NCBI RefSeq assembly: GCF_029910235.1
Contig: NZ_CP112874.1
Span: forward strand, 1,178,001 to 1,242,000
Direction: 5' to 3'
Source of the DNA: Pseudanabaena galeata CCNP1313
Lineage (GTDB): Bacteria > Cyanobacteriota > Cyanobacteriia > Pseudanabaenales > Pseudanabaenaceae
DNA: 64,000 nucleotides
The position numbers were made by a program, and so were the translations under genes. The notes beneath the pieces are model-generated. The model had not been told where the DNA came from. It ran no database searches and worked only from the letters and a program-made list of their open reading frames with translations. Of the stretch, positions 43,031 through 50,765 are shown in pieces. Every line of letters begins with the position of its first letter. The first letter of the stretch is position 1.

Positions 43031-43140
43031 AATCTTGGATCTTTAAAAATTTGCTATATCTTGAGTAAAGCTTAATTACAAGGCGATCGCTGCAAAACGT
43101 TGAGATTCTTAAAAATTAAATATTTCATCCTCCATGCCTA

Positions 43141-44047
43141 TAGAACCCATTTGGTATCTTAGGAAGTTTTAGCAAGGCGCTTAAGCATAAGCCTGATAAA
43201 GCAAAGATGAATTCTCGCATTAGCGTTGTCTAAAGTTCTGTCAAAGTTTTTGACCAGACTTTTACAACGCTCCATCCAAGCATTGGAACGTTCCACAATC
43301 CAACGCATAGGAATGACCACAAACCCAGATATGCCCAGTGAGGCTTTTTCCTGCTTAGACATTTTCGGTGCGACCTTAAACCTAATCTTGGTCATAATCT
43401 GCGGATAAATCTCCTCTAAGGCAGGGATTAACTTATCAGGATGGTAGCCATGATCAACCATGACTGTTATTTTGGGAATATTCACAGGTTTAGATTTAAA
43501 GTAGTCGATATTTTGAGCAAACATTTCAATCAAAGCCTTGTCATCGGAAAGACTTGCCTTCGTACAAAGGGTAAAGAATGGCAAACCAAGAGAATCCACA
43601 CCGAGATTTTTCTTGATGCCGTTCGTGGCTTTGTAGGTGCAGAAACCTTTGGACTCAACGCTGGCATTACAGGTGTTTTTGGTGGCTTGGGAATCGACGA
43701 TGATTAAGGTTGTCCACTTAGGCTTTTTTTCGGCTTGTTCTCTCACCTGTTCATGTAATATAGTCATGATTTCTCTCAGTACTCCTGACTCTCGCCATTG
43801 CTTGTAGTGCCAATACACTGTTGAGTATGGGGGTAAATCTTTGGGTAAGTCTGCCCAATTACATCCATTCTTGAGTTGGTAAAATACTCCATCTAATATT
43901 TGCCGTTTTGTCCATATTGGTGGTCTGGTTTTCTTCTTTTTGGGTAACAGAGGTTCGATAATCTCCCACTCTTGATCGCTTAGGTTGCTGCTATATCCCA
44001 TATTTGACTCCTTTTTCTTCTCTTCCTAAGATACCAAATGGGTTCTA
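43141..44047 (-). mobile_element. IS5 family insertion sequence
   Basis: 907 bp with 26-bp perfect terminal inverted repeats (TAGAACCCATTTGGTATCTT + AGGAAG) and TA duplicated at each side (43139-43140; 44048-44049). Directly beyond its right end is a Roco-gene remnant. Confidence 0.9.
43159..44001 (-). CDS. IS5 family transposase
   Basis: 280 aa, single frame. DUF4096-type N-terminus (LSDQEWEIIEPLLPKKKKTR), DDE residues in IIVDSQATKN, VMVDHGYHPDK and RWIVERSNAWMERC. Appears intact. Confidence 0.93.
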   Translation of the reverse strand: MGYSSNLSDQEWEIIEPLLPKKKKTRPPIWTKRQILDGVFYQLKNGCNWADLPKDLPPYSTVYWHYKQWRESGVLREIMTILHEQVREQAEKKPKWTTLIIVDSQATKNTCNASVESKGFCTYKATNGIKKNLGVDSLGLPFFTLCTKASLSDDKALIEMFAQNIDYFKSKPVNIPKITVMVDHGYHPDKLIPALEEIYPQIMTKIRFKVAPKMSKQEKASLGISGFVVIPMRWIVERSNAWMERCKSLVKNFDRTLDNANARIHLCFIRLMLKRLAKTS

Positions 44048-44050
44048 TAC

Positions 44051-44155
44051 CTAGCTATAAGCATCCTTGAGTTGGCTACTCCTATTAGCGATTAATGGAA
44101 GTTGGGTAATAACAGGTTTAATTAATTCCATACAGGTTTTCTCGGAGAGGCGATC
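44051..44155 (-). pseudogene. C-terminal remnant of a third Roco-type gene
   Basis: Minus strand reads DRLSEKTCMELIKPVITQLP-LIANRSS to a TAG at 44051-44053. It matches the tail of the Roco protein at 46355 (DDRLSEKNFMDLIKLVIAQL-P). Nothing else of the gene survives; an IS5 lies 3 bp away and a MITE copy on the other side. Confidence 0.65.
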
Positions 44156-44215
44156 GCCCAACAAACCTGTAAATGTCCAGATATCTAACTTTTAGAATTA
44201 CTGTAATAGCTGAGG

Positions 44216-44372: not shown

Positions 44373-44498
44373 CTAACCTTCTAGAAAGCCTTTGGTTGCA
44401 GCAATTACAATTTTGGCGACGGGATGATTGATCGCTTCTTCTAGTGCGGTAACACTACCTTTTTTGAGGGCATTGACGATTTTTTGTTGAACAATCAA
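44373..44498 (-). pseudogene. Small ORF or gene tail: NALKKGSVTALEEAINHPVA
   Basis: From a TTG at 44498, 3 bp after the Roco-like gene stop, the frame reads IVQQKIVNALKKGSVTALEE, AINHPVAKIVIAATKGFLEG, stop. It resembles the small helical C-terminal or N-terminal modules attached to cyanobacterial conflict-type NTPases, but is only 41 residues and has a weak start. Either a fragment of a lost gene or a tiny coupled protein. Confidence 0.4.
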
Positions 44499-44501
44499 TA
44501 T

Positions 44502-46349
44502 TTACTTACGCTTTTTTCTCTTCTTAGAGCGATTACTGTTGGGATTGGCAATATTAGAGAGAGTGTTCAATAGCTTTCTAAAGGAGAAAATCATACCGAT
44601 AATGCCAATAAAGACAAAGGCTACGCCAACATGCCCTGTGGAGATTTTCTGTCCTAACATCGATATTTCGGAAGGCGATTTTGAGTCATAGATAATTGCA
44701 ACAATTCCACCGATGACTAACAGGACAGATACTATCCTAATAGTATTAATTATTTGCGATAGGATTGGGGAAACTGCCTCAATATTATGTCTGCTTTCAG
44801 GCTTTTGACCTTTATTCAACTGCTGATGTTGTTCTTGAGATTTTTCCAATTGTGGCTTATTTGGTGGATTATCCATTGTGCTACTTTGTTGTCGATCTGG
44901 ATAAGTTTTATTCATTCTAACATCAACAATCAAGCTACTCACAGGTATTTTTTCATCACTGATCTCACATTCGACAGGCTTTTCATAACTACGATTTCTA
45001 AGAGAGGCTAAATTAAAGAAATGTCTACGATTATCATTTATATCCTTATCAATACATTCCTTGCACTTACAAGGAACCTGTTTCTTTGGAGACAAACCAT
45101 ATACTTGATTAATTTCATCAAGTTCATGTTCAACTACGCTTAATTCAGAAAGTTGATTGCCAATTACTAAAGCACAAATAAGATGTTGATTTGGATTATT
45201 GAATTTAGTCAGTTCAGAAATAGTATTGCTATCTTCATTATATAATACAAATCTGTCTCGATAAATCTCATTGTAATCTCTAATTCTTCGATGTAATTCC
45301 GTTATTAGTTCAATAAAAATATCATCAAGTTGAGTATTAGTAATATCATCTAAATCATAAGAATAAACAAGTGAATATACTTCATTAGGATTAGTTTGTC
45401 TATAAATAGAATGGTTAAAAAACGGCAAAAATCTAGGCATAATATAAGATTTATTGTGCATTTTGTACTGTTTGAATTCAAAGCAAAAATTAAAATGTAT
45501 CAGTAGCTCTAATAATAATTCTAAATCTTCATCTTGAGTATTCCATATCCTCCTAAAGTTATCTTCAGAATATATGCTATTTAATGAATGATTTGATTTT
45601 GAGTCAAAGATTTGATTAATCATAAAAACAAGCCATTCATAGTTGATAAATATTATTCTACTTAGGCTTGTCTGATAACTGCTTGAAAAATTTATGCAGA
45701 CACCTAAATGAATTAACTTTTGAAGAAAGTTCTTATGTTCTTTCTCTTCAATATGATTTTCTTGGCAAATTCTTTTAAAATCGCCCCAGTCAATATAATT
45801 CTTGTCATAACTACTTTTAAAGTAGTCAATTATATTGTCTTCATTCGTTGAAAGAGTAAAATATTTTTGTTCAAGATAAGTATGGAGTTTTATCTTGAAA
45901 TTATCTATATCCAAACTATTCTGAAAATCAACAGAAATAATCTCGACCTTATACTTGTTATTTTTAAATGGTGTTTTTTGATAAGCTCCATGTTTTACTT
46001 GAGTTATATTTCTAACTATTAAAATAGATGGATTACTGCTATACTTTGTAATTAAATATAACCAATCATCTAAATCTTCATTATGCTCTCTAATATTTAT
46101 AACTAATACATATAGGCAGCTTGACGCACAAAAAATTTTATATGCATCATTATTAATTACGTCACTCTGGAAATCCCATAATTCGACATTAATATTTTTC
46201 TGGGATGTTTCTAAATGATATTTTACAATATTTATTTTTTTTTGAGTTACAGTAAAATTTTGCTCTCCTACTAATTGTCGTATAAGCTCACTTTTACCTG
46301 CATTTATAGCTCCTAAAACATTTACTCTTGCTCTAAAAGAATAATTCAT
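44502..46349 (-). CDS. LRR-less Roco-like protein with degenerate G domain, membrane-anchored
   Basis: 615 aa. A Ras-like G domain opens the protein: P-loop GAINAGKS (13-20) is intact, but the G3 region reads WDFQSD (58-63) instead of WDFGGQ. A COR-like region (~190-440) follows, then CKCKEC (possible zinc knuckle), a disordered Gln/Pro/Ser linker, two membrane helices (~530-590) and a very basic end (KKRKKRK). Same architecture as the next gene upstream minus its LRRs. Codons are notably AT-richer than the neighbour. Likely a non-hydrolysing partner GTPase. Confidence 0.75.
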   Translation of the reverse strand: MNYSFRARVNVLGAINAGKSELIRQLVGEQNFTVTQKKINIVKYHLETSQKNINVELWDFQSDVINNDAYKIFCASSCLYVLVINIREHNEDLDDWLYLITKYSSNPSILIVRNITQVKHGAYQKTPFKNNKYKVEIISVDFQNSLDIDNFKIKLHTYLEQKYFTLSTNEDNIIDYFKSSYDKNYIDWGDFKRICQENHIEEKEHKNFLQKLIHLGVCINFSSSYQTSLSRIIFINYEWLVFMINQIFDSKSNHSLNSIYSEDNFRRIWNTQDEDLELLLELLIHFNFCFEFKQYKMHNKSYIMPRFLPFFNHSIYRQTNPNEVYSLVYSYDLDDITNTQLDDIFIELITELHRRIRDYNEIYRDRFVLYNEDSNTISELTKFNNPNQHLICALVIGNQLSELSVVEHELDEINQVYGLSPKKQVPCKCKECIDKDINDNRRHFFNLASLRNRSYEKPVECEISDEKIPVSSLIVDVRMNKTYPDRQQSSTMDNPPNKPQLEKSQEQHQQLNKGQKPESRHNIEAVSPILSQIINTIRIVSVLLVIGGIVAIIYDSKSPSEISMLGQKISTGHVGVAFVFIGIIGMIFSFRKLLNTLSNIANPNSNRSKKRKKRK

Positions 46350-46354
46350 ATCAA

Positions 46355-49300
46355 CTAATCAATCTCCCTGTTACGAAACAATCTTCTAGAAATAGTTTTA
46401 ACCATCGGAAGTTGAGCAATAACCAGTTTGATTAAATCCATAAAGTTTTTCTCGGAGAGGCGATCATCTTGGCGAAGTTGCAATGTACCGATCAAGGGAA
46501 TAAATATTATGCCTGCAATGATAACGGCAATGAGGTTTTGAATGGGGAGATTGCCTGCTAGATAGCCTATGGATAGGATGACAACAACAAAGAGAAATAG
46601 ATAAAATGAACCATTTGCCCATGCACTTTTAATTTTAGGTGATTGGTTTGGTGTTTGTGGCGGTGTTTCCATATGGTTAGTATTAGTTGGGGAGAAATTG
46701 TTATTGATGATTATTGGTGGGATTTTAAAGCCATCTTTTAGAGCATATTCCGTTGAGTATTCTAGATCGGGATTTGTTCTTGAATCTTGAAGTTGCGCTC
46801 TGGCTCCAATGTCATCAATTAAGCCTAATACATCGACAGGTTCATAGCTGATTTCGCATTGAACTGTAAATACACGCTTTTCGTAGCGACGTTTGAGGTT
46901 AGCGAATTCGTAAAAATGAGGGCTTTGGCTGCCTTTGCAGGTGTGGCAGTTGCAGGGGATGAGCTTTTGATATTTATTGGCGAGGCGTTTGTAGGAGGTA
47001 TGGATTTTGTCGAGTTCGTGAGTGACTACGGTTAACAGGTCACGTTTGTTTTTACCAGAGACACGGATCTTGATTTCGCGTTTGCCATAGTTTTCGGTGA
47101 CTTCAGCGAGGGTGCTGCTGATATTTTTGTAGTTGATGATTACGCCACTACGCCAGACGATTTGGGATTTGATGCTTTCGTGCATGGCAACGATGAACTG
47201 ACGTACAAGCCCTTTGGGCATAAAGTCATAGGTATAGCGGAGGATCAGGTTTTCGGATTCATCCCAAGCATATTCGGGTTGGTTTTCGGTGAGGAGTTGG
47301 GGGGCGATGTAGTTCCTTTTAGCTTGAGGAATTTCATAGCAGAGTTGAAACTTTTTCATGAGTTCCAATAAGCCGCTATGCATTCCTGAATATTCGTCTG
47401 CACTCCAGATTTGAGCAAGTTCTTTGTTGCTGAAACGCCCAAAGTTGCGGATTACTTGGGGGTTGTCGAGAACGGCATAGGCAGCATCGGTTCCCCATTT
47501 GGGTTTGAGGATCACGATCTGATAGAGGGGAGACATTTGATCGTCTTGGAAGTGCAGACAGATGCCGAGGTCATGGAGATATTCGCTCAGTTGCAATGCG
47601 TCTTTACGTTCTTTAAAGCCTTTGTCCTTGCAGATTTGCAGATATTCATTGAGGCTGATGTGGTTGCGCTGATCGCTCTCTAGGGCATGGCGGACTTTTA
47701 CCCATGTTTTGGGTAGGGTTTGACCGATGTGGGGGAGTTGGCTGAGTTGATGTTGGGCTGCGGTGAGGATTTTTTCTAAATTGCGGTTATTTGCGAGATT
47801 GGTAGCAAAGACATCTTTAAGGTTCTCAAATTCGCCGCGCAATTGGTTGACGTTTATTTCTCTCTGACGGTCTTGGTTTTCGTTTTTGACAATTAGGATC
47901 GGGCTGTTGTCGCTGAGAAGTTCGATGACGTTGAGCCAATAGTAAAAGTCAGTGTCTTCTTTGCGGGTGTCGGCAACGAGGAGATAGAGAGAACGCTTGG
48001 TGAGAAAGTATTGATGGGTGGAGTGATAGATTTCTTGTCCGCCGAAGTCCCAGATATTGACATTGAATTGATTGCCATCGGTGCGGAGAAATGACCAATG
48101 TAAGACTTCGATGCCTTTGGTGCTGTCTTCTTCGCAGAGTTGATAATTGGGATTGATGATTTTATTAGCAAGGGTAGTTTTGCCTGCGCCGCCCTCACCG
48201 ACAATCAGGAGTTTTGCTTCGTAAAGATAGTCTATGCCTTCGACTTCTATTTGTTTGAAGTATTGACGAATGGCTTCAAGACCTTCTTTTACTACTTCTA
48301 ATGGTGGTTTTATGATTGGATTTTCATCAAGAGCTAAGTGAGTCAGTTTTGGTAACCTTGTAATCGAGTCTGGAATCACGCTGAGACTGTTGGAGCGAAG
48401 GTCAAGGGATTGGAGATTGGTTAACCTTGTAATCGAGTCTGGAATCGCGCTGAGACTGTTGTTACGAAGGTAAAGGAATTGAAGATTGGTTAACCTTGTA
48501 ATCGAGTCTGGAATCACGCTGAGACTGTTGGAGCGAAGGTCAAGGGATTGGAGATTGGTTAACCTTGTAATCGAGTCTGGAATCACGCTGAGGCTGTTGG
48601 AGTGAAGATAAAGGGATTGGAGGTTAGTTAACCTTGTAATCGAGTCGGAAATCTCGCTGATCCTGTTGTTGCTAAGGTAAAGGGATTGGAGATTGGTGAG
48701 TCGGGTAATCGAGTCTGGAATCACGCTGAGACTGTTGGAGCGAAGGTCAAGGGATTGGAGATTGGTTAACCTTGTAATCGAGTCTGGAATCTCTCTGAGA
48801 CTGTTGGAGCTAAGGTAAAGGGATTGGAGATTGGTTAACCTTGTAATCGAGTCTGGAATCTCGCTGAGGCTGTTGGAGTGAAGATAAAGGGATTGGAGAT
48901 TGATTAACCTTGTGATCGAGTCTGGAATCTCGCTGAGACTGTTGGAGCTAAGGTCAAGGGATTGGAGATTGATTAACCTTGTGATCAAGGCGGGAATCTC
49001 TCTGAGACGGGTGTTTCTTAGGTCAAGGGATTGGAGATTGGTTAACCTTGTGATCAAGACGGGAATCTCTCTGAGAATGTTGGAGCTTAGGTTAAGGGAT
49101 TGGAGATTGGTGAGTCGGGTGATCGAGTAGGGAATCTCGCTGAGAAAGGTGTTTCTTAGGTTAAGGGATTGGAGATTGGTGAGTTGGGTGATCGAGTAGG
49201 GAATCTCGAAGAGACGGTTGTTGCTTAGGTCAAGGGATTGGAGATTGGTGAGTCGGGTGATCGAGTCGGGAATCTCGCTGAGACGGTTGTTGATTAAAAT

Positions 49301-49432
49301 CAACCTCTTTAAACTTTTGCACTTAGCAATTGTCGATGGCAATACTTCAATCCCCTTTCCCGCCAGATTGAGTTCTTCCCACTCCTCCCGCGCAGCCTGT
49401 TCAATAATTTCTTCTAATTCCGATGGCAACAT
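46355..49432 (-). CDS. Roco protein: LRR-Roc-COR GTPase with two C-terminal membrane segments
   Basis: 1025 aa. N-terminal cap, then thirteen full 23-residue leucine-rich repeats (59-357). Roc domain: P-loop GEGGAGKTT (411-419), G3 WDFGGQE, nucleotide-recognition candidate VKNENQDR. The COR region (~570-850) ends with CNCHTC and FEFANLKRRYEKRVFTVQCE-type sequence (as FYEFANLKRRYE). Two membrane helices near 935-990 are followed by a conserved tail DDRLSEKNFMDLIKLVIAQL. Bacterial Roco GTPases cycle with dimerisation. Its stop is 5 bp from the next gene start, so the two are one operon. Confidence 0.88.
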   Translation of the reverse strand: MLPSELEEIIEQAAREEWEELNLAGKGIEVLPSTIAKCKSLKRLILINNRLSEIPDSITRLTNLQSLDLSNNRLFEIPYSITQLTNLQSLNLRNTFLSEIPYSITRLTNLQSLNLSSNILREIPVLITRLTNLQSLDLRNTRLREIPALITRLINLQSLDLSSNSLSEIPDSITRLINLQSLYLHSNSLSEIPDSITRLTNLQSLYLSSNSLREIPDSITRLTNLQSLDLRSNSLSVIPDSITRLTNLQSLYLSNNRISEISDSITRLTNLQSLYLHSNSLSVIPDSITRLTNLQSLDLRSNSLSVIPDSITRLTNLQFLYLRNNSLSAIPDSITRLTNLQSLDLRSNSLSVIPDSITRLPKLTHLALDENPIIKPPLEVVKEGLEAIRQYFKQIEVEGIDYLYEAKLLIVGEGGAGKTTLANKIINPNYQLCEEDSTKGIEVLHWSFLRTDGNQFNVNIWDFGGQEIYHSTHQYFLTKRSLYLLVADTRKEDTDFYYWLNVIELLSDNSPILIVKNENQDRQREINVNQLRGEFENLKDVFATNLANNRNLEKILTAAQHQLSQLPHIGQTLPKTWVKVRHALESDQRNHISLNEYLQICKDKGFKERKDALQLSEYLHDLGICLHFQDDQMSPLYQIVILKPKWGTDAAYAVLDNPQVIRNFGRFSNKELAQIWSADEYSGMHSGLLELMKKFQLCYEIPQAKRNYIAPQLLTENQPEYAWDESENLILRYTYDFMPKGLVRQFIVAMHESIKSQIVWRSGVIINYKNISSTLAEVTENYGKREIKIRVSGKNKRDLLTVVTHELDKIHTSYKRLANKYQKLIPCNCHTCKGSQSPHFYEFANLKRRYEKRVFTVQCEISYEPVDVLGLIDDIGARAQLQDSRTNPDLEYSTEYALKDGFKIPPIIINNNFSPTNTNHMETPPQTPNQSPKIKSAWANGSFYLFLFVVVILSIGYLAGNLPIQNLIAVIIAGIIFIPLIGTLQLRQDDRLSEKNFMDLIKLVIAQLPMVKTISRRLFRNREID
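48362..49258. repeat. 69-bp coding minisatellite (LRR repeats)
   Basis: Thirteen direct 69-bp units inside the Roco gene, each encoding one LRR of 23 residues. Many are almost identical at DNA level (core AGGGATTGGAGATTGGTTAA + CCTTGT), and units 9, 12 and 14 encode the same protein sequence. This indicates recent expansion or gene conversion. Confidence 0.85.
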
Positions 49433-49448: not shown

Positions 49449-49667
49449 TTAAAAGGTGAAATTTAGTTTGGTGGTGGGAGATTGAGATCCCCGACTTTTT
49501 CTACTCAAGCAAAAGAGATTCGCAAATTTACAAAAAAAGTCGGGGATCTGGGCTTTTAGGTATTCATTTAGCTCATCAATAGTTACATCGATACCACGCC
49601 TTCTCAATCCATCAGCGATCGCATTATTTGCATTCTCGTCTAAATGAAACCTAATTGATTCCACCAT
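49449..49667 (-). pseudogene. Truncated DUF5615 PIN-like toxin
   Basis: Starts well (GAAGGAGCG before ATG 49667; IRFHLDENANNAIADGLRRR + GIDVT is a DUF5615 N-terminus) but after ~30 residues enters an 87-bp intergenic repeat (49471-49557) and ends. The rest of the toxin is missing. Overlaps the DUF433 gene by 17 bp as in intact modules. Confidence 0.75.
49471..49557. repeat. 87-bp stem-loop repeat, copy 1
   Basis: GTGGTGGGAGATTGAGATCC through GGGGATCTGGGCTTTT, with GATCCCCGACTTTTT pairing to AAAAAAGTCGGGGATC. Nearly identical to 50471-50557. It disrupts the DUF5615 gene. Confidence 0.8.
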
Positions 49668-50420: not shown

Positions 50421-50557
50421 GGAAAAAGGTAAAAGGTAAAAGGTAAAAGGTAAAAGGTAAAAATGGGCTAGTGGTGGGAGATTGAGATCCCCGACTTTTT
50501 CTACTCAAGCAAAAGGGATTTGCAAATTCATCAAAAAAGTCGGGGATCTGGGCTTTT
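50421..50557. repeat. AAAAGGT tandem repeat and 87-bp stem-loop repeat, copy 2
   Basis: About six 7-bp units at 50421-50463, then the same 87-bp repeat as at 49471 (50471-50557). The following ~200 bp up to the methyltransferase gene contain no recognisable feature. Confidence 0.75.
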
Positions 50558-50765
50558 TGGAGAAATTTGTAATATTAGTCGATCGCAACTCCAATAACTG
50601 AACATCTATTTCCGCCGCCAAATCTGCAATCTTTTAGTCAAAAACCATGGTCATGGGTTTCGACCCCTCATAATTTTGTCAAGTACAATAACAGATTAGT
50701 ACAAAGCAACAAAACACAAATTTCTAAAAACATCCACAGTATTGCTAGAAAAACGATCTAAAAAT

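Follow-up and report, generated by a model that had tools for sequence, protein, structure and literature searches.

A putative membrane-tailed Roco receptor and an LRR-less Roc-COR neighbor at a Pseudanabaena locus that looks like a record of tail swapping

RESULTS

Gene 1 and gene 2

We analyzed a 64,000-nucleotide stretch of Pseudanabaena galeata CCNP1313 DNA (the window; all positions are counted within it), in which an initial annotation had described an LRR-Roc-COR protein followed 5 nucleotides (nt) later by a second protein of the same plan without LRRs. Both open reading frames (ORFs) are present on the minus strand, 5 nt apart: gene 1 (46355 to 49432) encodes 1025 amino acids (aa) and gene 2 (44502 to 46349) encodes 615 aa. 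The product of gene 1 carries, above the Pfam cut-offs, an LRR array, Roc, COR-A, and COR-B, and then the sequence PCNCHTC and two hydrophobic segments. The LRR array (48349 to 49289, minus strand) consists of 13.7 copies of a 69-nt unit with 87% matches. Roc, placed by Pfam and alignment (47762 to 48214, minus strand), contains GEGGAGKT, WDFGGQ, and, in the G4 region, KNENQ; the alignment shows the GTPase motifs to be retained except G4. COR-A and COR-B span 46811 to 47713 (minus strand, Pfam), with the CxCxxC motif lying within COR-B. The remainder, which we call tail A (46358 to 46810, minus strand), is made up of a linker, the two hydrophobic segments, and LRQDDRLSEKNFMDLIKLVIAQLP; Rocos of genomes G402 and G396 have the same type of tail. 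PADLOC returned a weak match of gene 1 to mads_8 (24 bits; E = 5e-6). We also considered gene 1 as an effector or internalin and rejected this assignment, as the NCBIfam matches stem from the LRRs and all lie below the model cut-offs. Paralogues in the window genome (G000) differ in their tails, with tail A at gene 1 and a CHAT-like tail at C1:2446368.

Gene 2 encodes Roc (E = 2.8e-10) and COR-A (E = 3.4e-21), both above the Pfam cut-offs; COR-B is recognized by alignment and structure model only, and Pfam found no LRR. Near its C terminus gene 2 also has a CxCxxC motif (PCKCKEC) and two hydrophobic segments, so the motif and membrane anchors ascribed to both proteins at the outset are indeed common to them. 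Another early claim was a retained P-loop together with an altered G3, WDFQSD in place of WDFGGQ, and the alignment bears it out. The P-loop, GAINAGKS, is intact, with both glycines and the Lys retained, and G3 (46161 to 46178, minus strand) has lost its glycines and Gln. Erosion extends beyond G3: the switch-I (G2) Thr is replaced by Gln, and, measured against 45 CxCxxC-type Rocos that include gene 1, gene 2 retains 53 of 135 conserved columns (Roc, 18/55; COR-A, 20/46; COR-B, 15/34). The three Cys of CxCxxC are retained. A structure model of gene 2 (mean pLDDT, 69.3; pTM, 0.59) has most of the Roc-COR part at a pLDDT of 70 to 90; its linker and tail are predicted poorly. Its best Foldseek matches are LRRK1, LRRK2, Chlorobium tepidum Roco (CtRoco), and Methanosarcina Roco2, with structures such as 6hlu and 4wnr. 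PADLOC gave no match to gene 2.

The composition of gene 2 is uneven: its GC content is 26% in the first 1200 nt, 37% in the last 300 nt, and about 29% overall. Its codon positions have a coding-type pattern (GC1/2/3 = 0.38/0.27/0.23), and its 615 codons contain no internal stop. Decay of a duplicate in situ would not leave 615 codons without a stop at such a composition, which argues that the body of gene 2 has long been a coding gene, probably elsewhere in origin. Composition and searches delimit this AT-rich Roc-COR body (44901 to 46349, minus strand), for which no close relative was found. Nucleotide comparison delimits the rest, tail B (44505 to 44900, minus strand): positions 44502 to 44891 match, at 83% identity, the tail that a single fused LRR-Roco carries on the Pseudanabaena plasmid NZ_AP017564.1. 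To judge from its sequence, then, gene 2 is a chimera of a divergent AT-rich body joined to native tail B.

Motifs of the CxCxxC subfamily

To place these motifs, we used an alignment of Rocos picked by likeness to gene 1. The 119 matches to the gene 1 core comprise 70 distinct ones; with the window copies replaced by gene 1 and gene 2, the alignment has 70 rows, the G405 gene being present twice. All 69 other rows, gene 1 included, have WDFGGQ where gene 2 has WDFQSD. Loss of the G3 Gln by itself is not unique to gene 2, since G3 reads GGT and GAT in more distant Rocos at loci L220 and L221. The short Rocos of G111 and G123 (L220, 3180 to 5141, and L221, 3284 to 5188), which have low COR-A scores, were considered as relatives of gene 2 and rejected; they have LRRs and a single C-terminal hydrophobic stretch.

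The aligned cyanobacterial Rocos form two groups, one with CxCxxC and mostly NExQ at G4, the other (23 rows) with an NKxD-type G4 and without CxCxxC. Gene 1 belongs to the CxCxxC group. Gene 2 shares CxCxxC and N-x-x-Q, its G4 being NITQ, and its branch is too long to place: in a quick tree its position is unsure, with an end branch of 8.4 changes per column. Most of the CxCxxC subfamily, including gene 1, is without a canonical NKxD, so its absence is not peculiar to gene 2. The prevalence of NExQ in place of NKxD in CxCxxC-type Rocos should bear on their nucleotide specificity.

Tail types and tail replacement

Within the genus, identity to the gene 1 core is 70 to 89% for ten other copies, of which one is partial, 60% for that of G410, and 49 to 50% for two with CHAT-like tails. 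These cores end in different tails, whose types we named by eye, with no profile used. Tail A, two helices followed by LRQDxRLSEKxF or a similar sequence, is found in gene 1, G402, and contig 27 of G396. Tail B, another two-helix tail, is found in gene 2 and G405, and tail C, which ends in ALEEAINHPVAKIVIAATKGFLEG or a similar sequence, in G400, G407, G409, G412, G414, contig 3 of G396, and G406. Other genus cores bear CHAT-like and further tails. Pfam gave no match above the cut-off to tails A, B, and C or to the G410 tail. The tails borne by the CxCxxC core across cyanobacteria, again typed by eye, include tails A and C, TIR-like and CHAT-like tails, and others. Sequences more weakly related to tail A (31 to 41% identity) end some Rocos outside the CxCxxC group and also occur as stand-alone frames of 210 to 233 aa. 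In a quick tree, the gene 1 core falls in a clade of 9 rows (SH-aLRT, 98) whose other members bear tail C or B, and the other two tail-A Rocos of its core group in the genus branch outside this clade.

Comparison of the window with relatives' DNA points to how gene 1 acquired its present end. The DNA of G400 matches the window up to the end of the core at 46812 and then again at 44491 to 44343, 44193 to 44045, and 43142 to 42985, on the side of the universal stress protein gene; G409 behaves likewise. The gap between the core match and the resumption at 44491 is 356 nt in G400 versus 2320 nt in the window. Because the match breaks off and resumes at these points, the sequence just downstream of gene 2 (44373 to 44491, minus strand; ALKKGSVTALEEAINHPVAKIVIAATKGFLEG and a stop) can be recognized as the orphan 3′ end of a tail C, which in relatives' Rocos is in frame. 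The locus thus records the replacement of a C-terminal tail: the core of relatives continues into another tail, and the end of that tail is what remains orphaned here, downstream of gene 2. On this nucleotide comparison, the divergent Roc-COR of gene 2 sits in an apparently inserted stretch. Farther downstream, the stretch 44083 to 44156 (minus strand) looks like what is left of a tail-A end, and G400, G409, and G412 have comparable remnants behind their tail C. The order of events may accordingly have been a core with tail A, then tail C placed in front of it, and then tail A plus gene 2 placed in front of tail C. That tail C would be older than the insert is suggested by the relatives' arrangement alone.

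Search for a conserved pair

The initial annotation proposed that the two genes form a dedicated pair and that co-occurrence in other genomes would be the check. Searching with gene 2 gave matches in 48 of 386 genomes of the phylum (at most three candidates scored per genome) and in 21 of 38 genomes of the family; apart from gene 2 itself and a 75% tail-only match in G405, all are at 30% identity or less. A COR-A search gave 85 matches in 50 of the 386 phylum genomes and 40 matches in 21 of the 38 family genomes, window genome included. None of the 20 Roco-bearing genomes of the family sample besides the window genome has an adjacent second Roco. Adjoining COR-A matches occur in both samples only in G000 and G033, although some could escape notice where assemblies are split. 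The G033 pair is not gene-2-like: it consists of two LRR-Rocos with WDFGGQ, and in the second the matched frame is interrupted by a stop and the open frame shows no CxCxxC.

We extended the comparison to CxCxxC-Roco loci, taking the best 80 of at least 120 relatives confirmed by a core-profile search. Two of these 80 have a second Roco within the fetched stretch, many loci ending at contig ends, and neither is gene-2-like; tail B at E = 1e-4 was found in none of them. The gene 2 body has no close relative among 47 pattern matches in genome contigs, among 6 in viral contigs, or in phages, and none of the 6 plasmid records reaches 60% identity, the tail-B plasmid coming closest. The recurrent adjacency expected of a two-gene system of an active and an inactive NTPase is therefore absent from the phylum and family samples and from the best 80 of at least 120 loci, and the proposal of a dedicated pair found no support in the search. 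The annotation had named, as the outcome that would speak against it, a decayed duplicate with no conserved association. A conserved association is indeed lacking in these samples, but the body of gene 2 is stop-free, AT-rich, highly divergent coding sequence and not a decayed duplicate. What the two genes appear to preserve is a history of tail swapping; they do not look like a conserved two-gene machine.

Neighborhood

An IS4/5-type insertion sequence (43140 to 44050, minus strand; transposase, 43159 to 44001), whose outer ends were set by eye from its inverted ends, lies between the tail remnants and the universal stress protein gene. The surroundings had been called full of mobile and conflict genes. 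This holds for the transposase, an HTH_38 ORF (integrase core below the cut-off), and a DUF433 ORF, but FeoA, FeoB, and the universal stress protein lie alongside. PADLOC gave no match to 10 further ORFs (drawn from 45 ORFs of at least 130 aa), and the neighborhood of the two genes is no recognized defense island.

Some further features of Roco loci were noted in passing. Similar hairpin-like repeats (agatccccgac ... gtcggggatct) at 49490 to 49570 and 50480 to 50560 of the window flank the DUF433 region, and G400 and G409 have similar copies close to their Roco genes. At loci L080 (NZ_AP017564.1) and L086, Roco genes stand beside phage-tail-sheath, tail, and DUF4255 genes, an arrangement that resembles a contractile injection cluster (annotated in L080, recognized by eye in L086). 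The G346 Roco (L223, 2391 to 8060) is in two pieces, with transposase-like ORFs, identified by eye, in between.

A possible internal start ahead of the membrane tail

All 15 tail-A proteins have an in-frame ATG 60 to 96 residues ahead of LRQD. Strong upstream pairing with the 16S end was found for 10 of these 15 ATGs versus 12 of 105 other in-frame ATGs, in a range chosen after inspection of the sites and with several of the 15 being close relatives, three of them with an identical upstream stretch. The mean pairing is −5.2 versus −4.0 in synonymous shuffles, and none of 400 shuffles was as low; any cut-off or odd tail-A genes that escaped the pattern are outside this count. A first set of Met codons, likewise chosen after inspection, comprised 38 sites and differed from 287 other in-frame ATGs with a P value of 1.5e-5. 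We also applied a first-ATG rule to all tail types among the best 80 of at least 120 loci. This gave 59 rows, of which 58 have a tail of at least 100 residues and 45 an ATG. In this set, the tail ATGs differ from core ATGs (P = 0.009), the difference from ATGs further on is not significant (P = 0.057), and strong sites make up 13 of 45 versus 25 of 354 (P = 6e-5). TIR-like tails mostly have no such signal. The tail ATG of gene 1, one of the 15, is without a Shine-Dalgarno sequence (+2.9), and that of gene 2 has a weak one (−1.2). The signal reaches as far as an Omnitrophota MAG contig (L181).

An in-frame ATG with a Shine-Dalgarno-like sequence ahead of the membrane tail was noted in the tail-A Rocos of L011, L013, L016, L073, L100, L148, L151, L159, L181, and L190, where the tail may therefore also be made as a separate protein.

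DISCUSSION

We favor, with a probability of roughly 0.6, the reading that gene 1 encodes a membrane-tailed AP-GTPase/Roco receptor with an exchangeable tail and that gene 2 is an inserted, non-switching Roc-COR. The LRR array of gene 1 would recognize something, its Roc-COR would switch by nucleotide, and the two-helix C-terminal tail would deliver the output, most likely by an action on the membrane. The C terminus may behave as a cassette that is swapped by recombination at the linker after COR. One or more such events would have severed the older tail C, with about 2.3 kb replacing about 0.36 kb. The inserted DNA would have brought tail A for gene 1 and then gene 2, in which an AT-rich Roc-COR of long standing, free of LRRs, is fused to native tail B.

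The gene 2 product probably still folds as a Roc-COR and would be unable to switch. The available text of one study describes CtRoco as mainly dimeric when nucleotide free or GDP bound and monomeric with GTP (PMC5714945); that of another reports that GTP triggers a large change in CtRoco, with the LRR-Roc linker as the hinge (PMC11052575). A Roc-COR that cannot switch is expected to stay dimer prone, and we therefore propose gene 2 as a locking partner. Its most likely role, if any, would be that of a pseudo-GTPase, a COR-dimer partner that does not cycle and either keeps gene 1 dimeric or contributes a second membrane tail.

Gene 2 might instead be a recently arrived or dying passenger without present function, carried in with the tail cassette. 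It is found only in the window genome, its conserved switch residues are lost, and it sits amid tail remnants and an insertion sequence, as a passenger could. But 615 stop-free codons at about 29% GC with a coding-type codon-position pattern argue for selection during most of its history, and we regard this account as unlikely. A dedicated two-gene system, in which selection holds an LRR-Roco sensor and a pseudo-GTPase partner together, is less probable still: the 5-nt spacing suggests co-translation, gene 2 keeps its fold, P-loop, and CxCxxC despite eroded switches, and the available text of PMC8195603 describes active and eroded NTPases paired in nSTAND2 two-gene operons, but no gene-2-like partner was found in 386 phylum genomes (at most three candidates scored per genome), 38 family genomes, plasmids, phages, viral contigs, or the best 80 of at least 120 related loci. 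What stands of the recognition system first suggested for this locus is the architecture of gene 1, that of a predicted counter-invader receptor class, and a gene 2 with eroded switches that has kept its fold and COR; the dedicated pairing is not supported by the genomes searched.

We also put forward, tentatively and at somewhat below even odds, that membrane-tailed Roco receptors encode their tail twice, as part of the full-length receptor and as a free two-helix membrane protein made from the linker ATG. The free tail would assemble with the activated receptor into a pore, and exchange of a self-contained tail gene would ease tail swapping. Since the gene 1 tail ATG has no Shine-Dalgarno sequence, free tail from gene 1 would be weak or absent. 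A limited literature search found no published report of internal starts in Roco genes; the possible internal start offers a simple bench test of how Roco receptors build a membrane effector.

LRRK2-type and immune receptors have a predicted bacterial counterpart in the class to which gene 1 belongs. A literature search found no test of the role of this class in a cell, and a search by title and start of abstract found no test of an LRR-Roco in phage defense. By keeping its discarded tail ends, the locus shows how effector exchange happens, and gene 2 would provide a naturally occurring Roc-COR whose switch does not work.

Polymorphic toxins are known for displaced C-terminal cassettes, in which a constant front exchanges its C terminus and the old cassette is left downstream. 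The window locus resembles them in the swapping pattern alone, with no secreted toxin or immunity gene recognized in it. CtRoco (6hlu, 3dpu) shares the LRR-Roc-COR order and fold. In an alignment it reads WDFGGQ and NKID; what sets the window proteins apart is a CxCxxC that follows COR, the presence of membrane tails, and the lack of a canonical NKxD. The nSTAND2 two-gene operon, as far as the available text of PMC8195603 describes it, is similar in that two related NTPases are neighbors and one of them has eroded nucleotide motifs, but it belongs to another NTPase family and is a recurring mobile operon, whereas the window pair was found once.

The closest likeness is to the prokaryotic AP-GTPase systems, to which the available text of the same paper assigns LRRs that evolve fast and C-terminal domains of at least 24 kinds, and which it predicts to be counter-invader systems (Kaur et al. 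2021, eLife 70394, PMC8195603); counter-invader action is thus a prediction there too. In contrast to that description, as far as it is available, the swap in the window left older tail ends and, in the insert, a Roc-COR that lacks LRRs and has eroded switches. The LRRs that stand in front in this class are absent from gene 2. Gene 1 fits the published class, with N-terminal LRRs ahead of its AP-GTPase (Roc) and COR (judged by the presence of the LRRs), a variable C-terminal effector position that holds several tail types on one core family, and paralogues with different tails in one genome.
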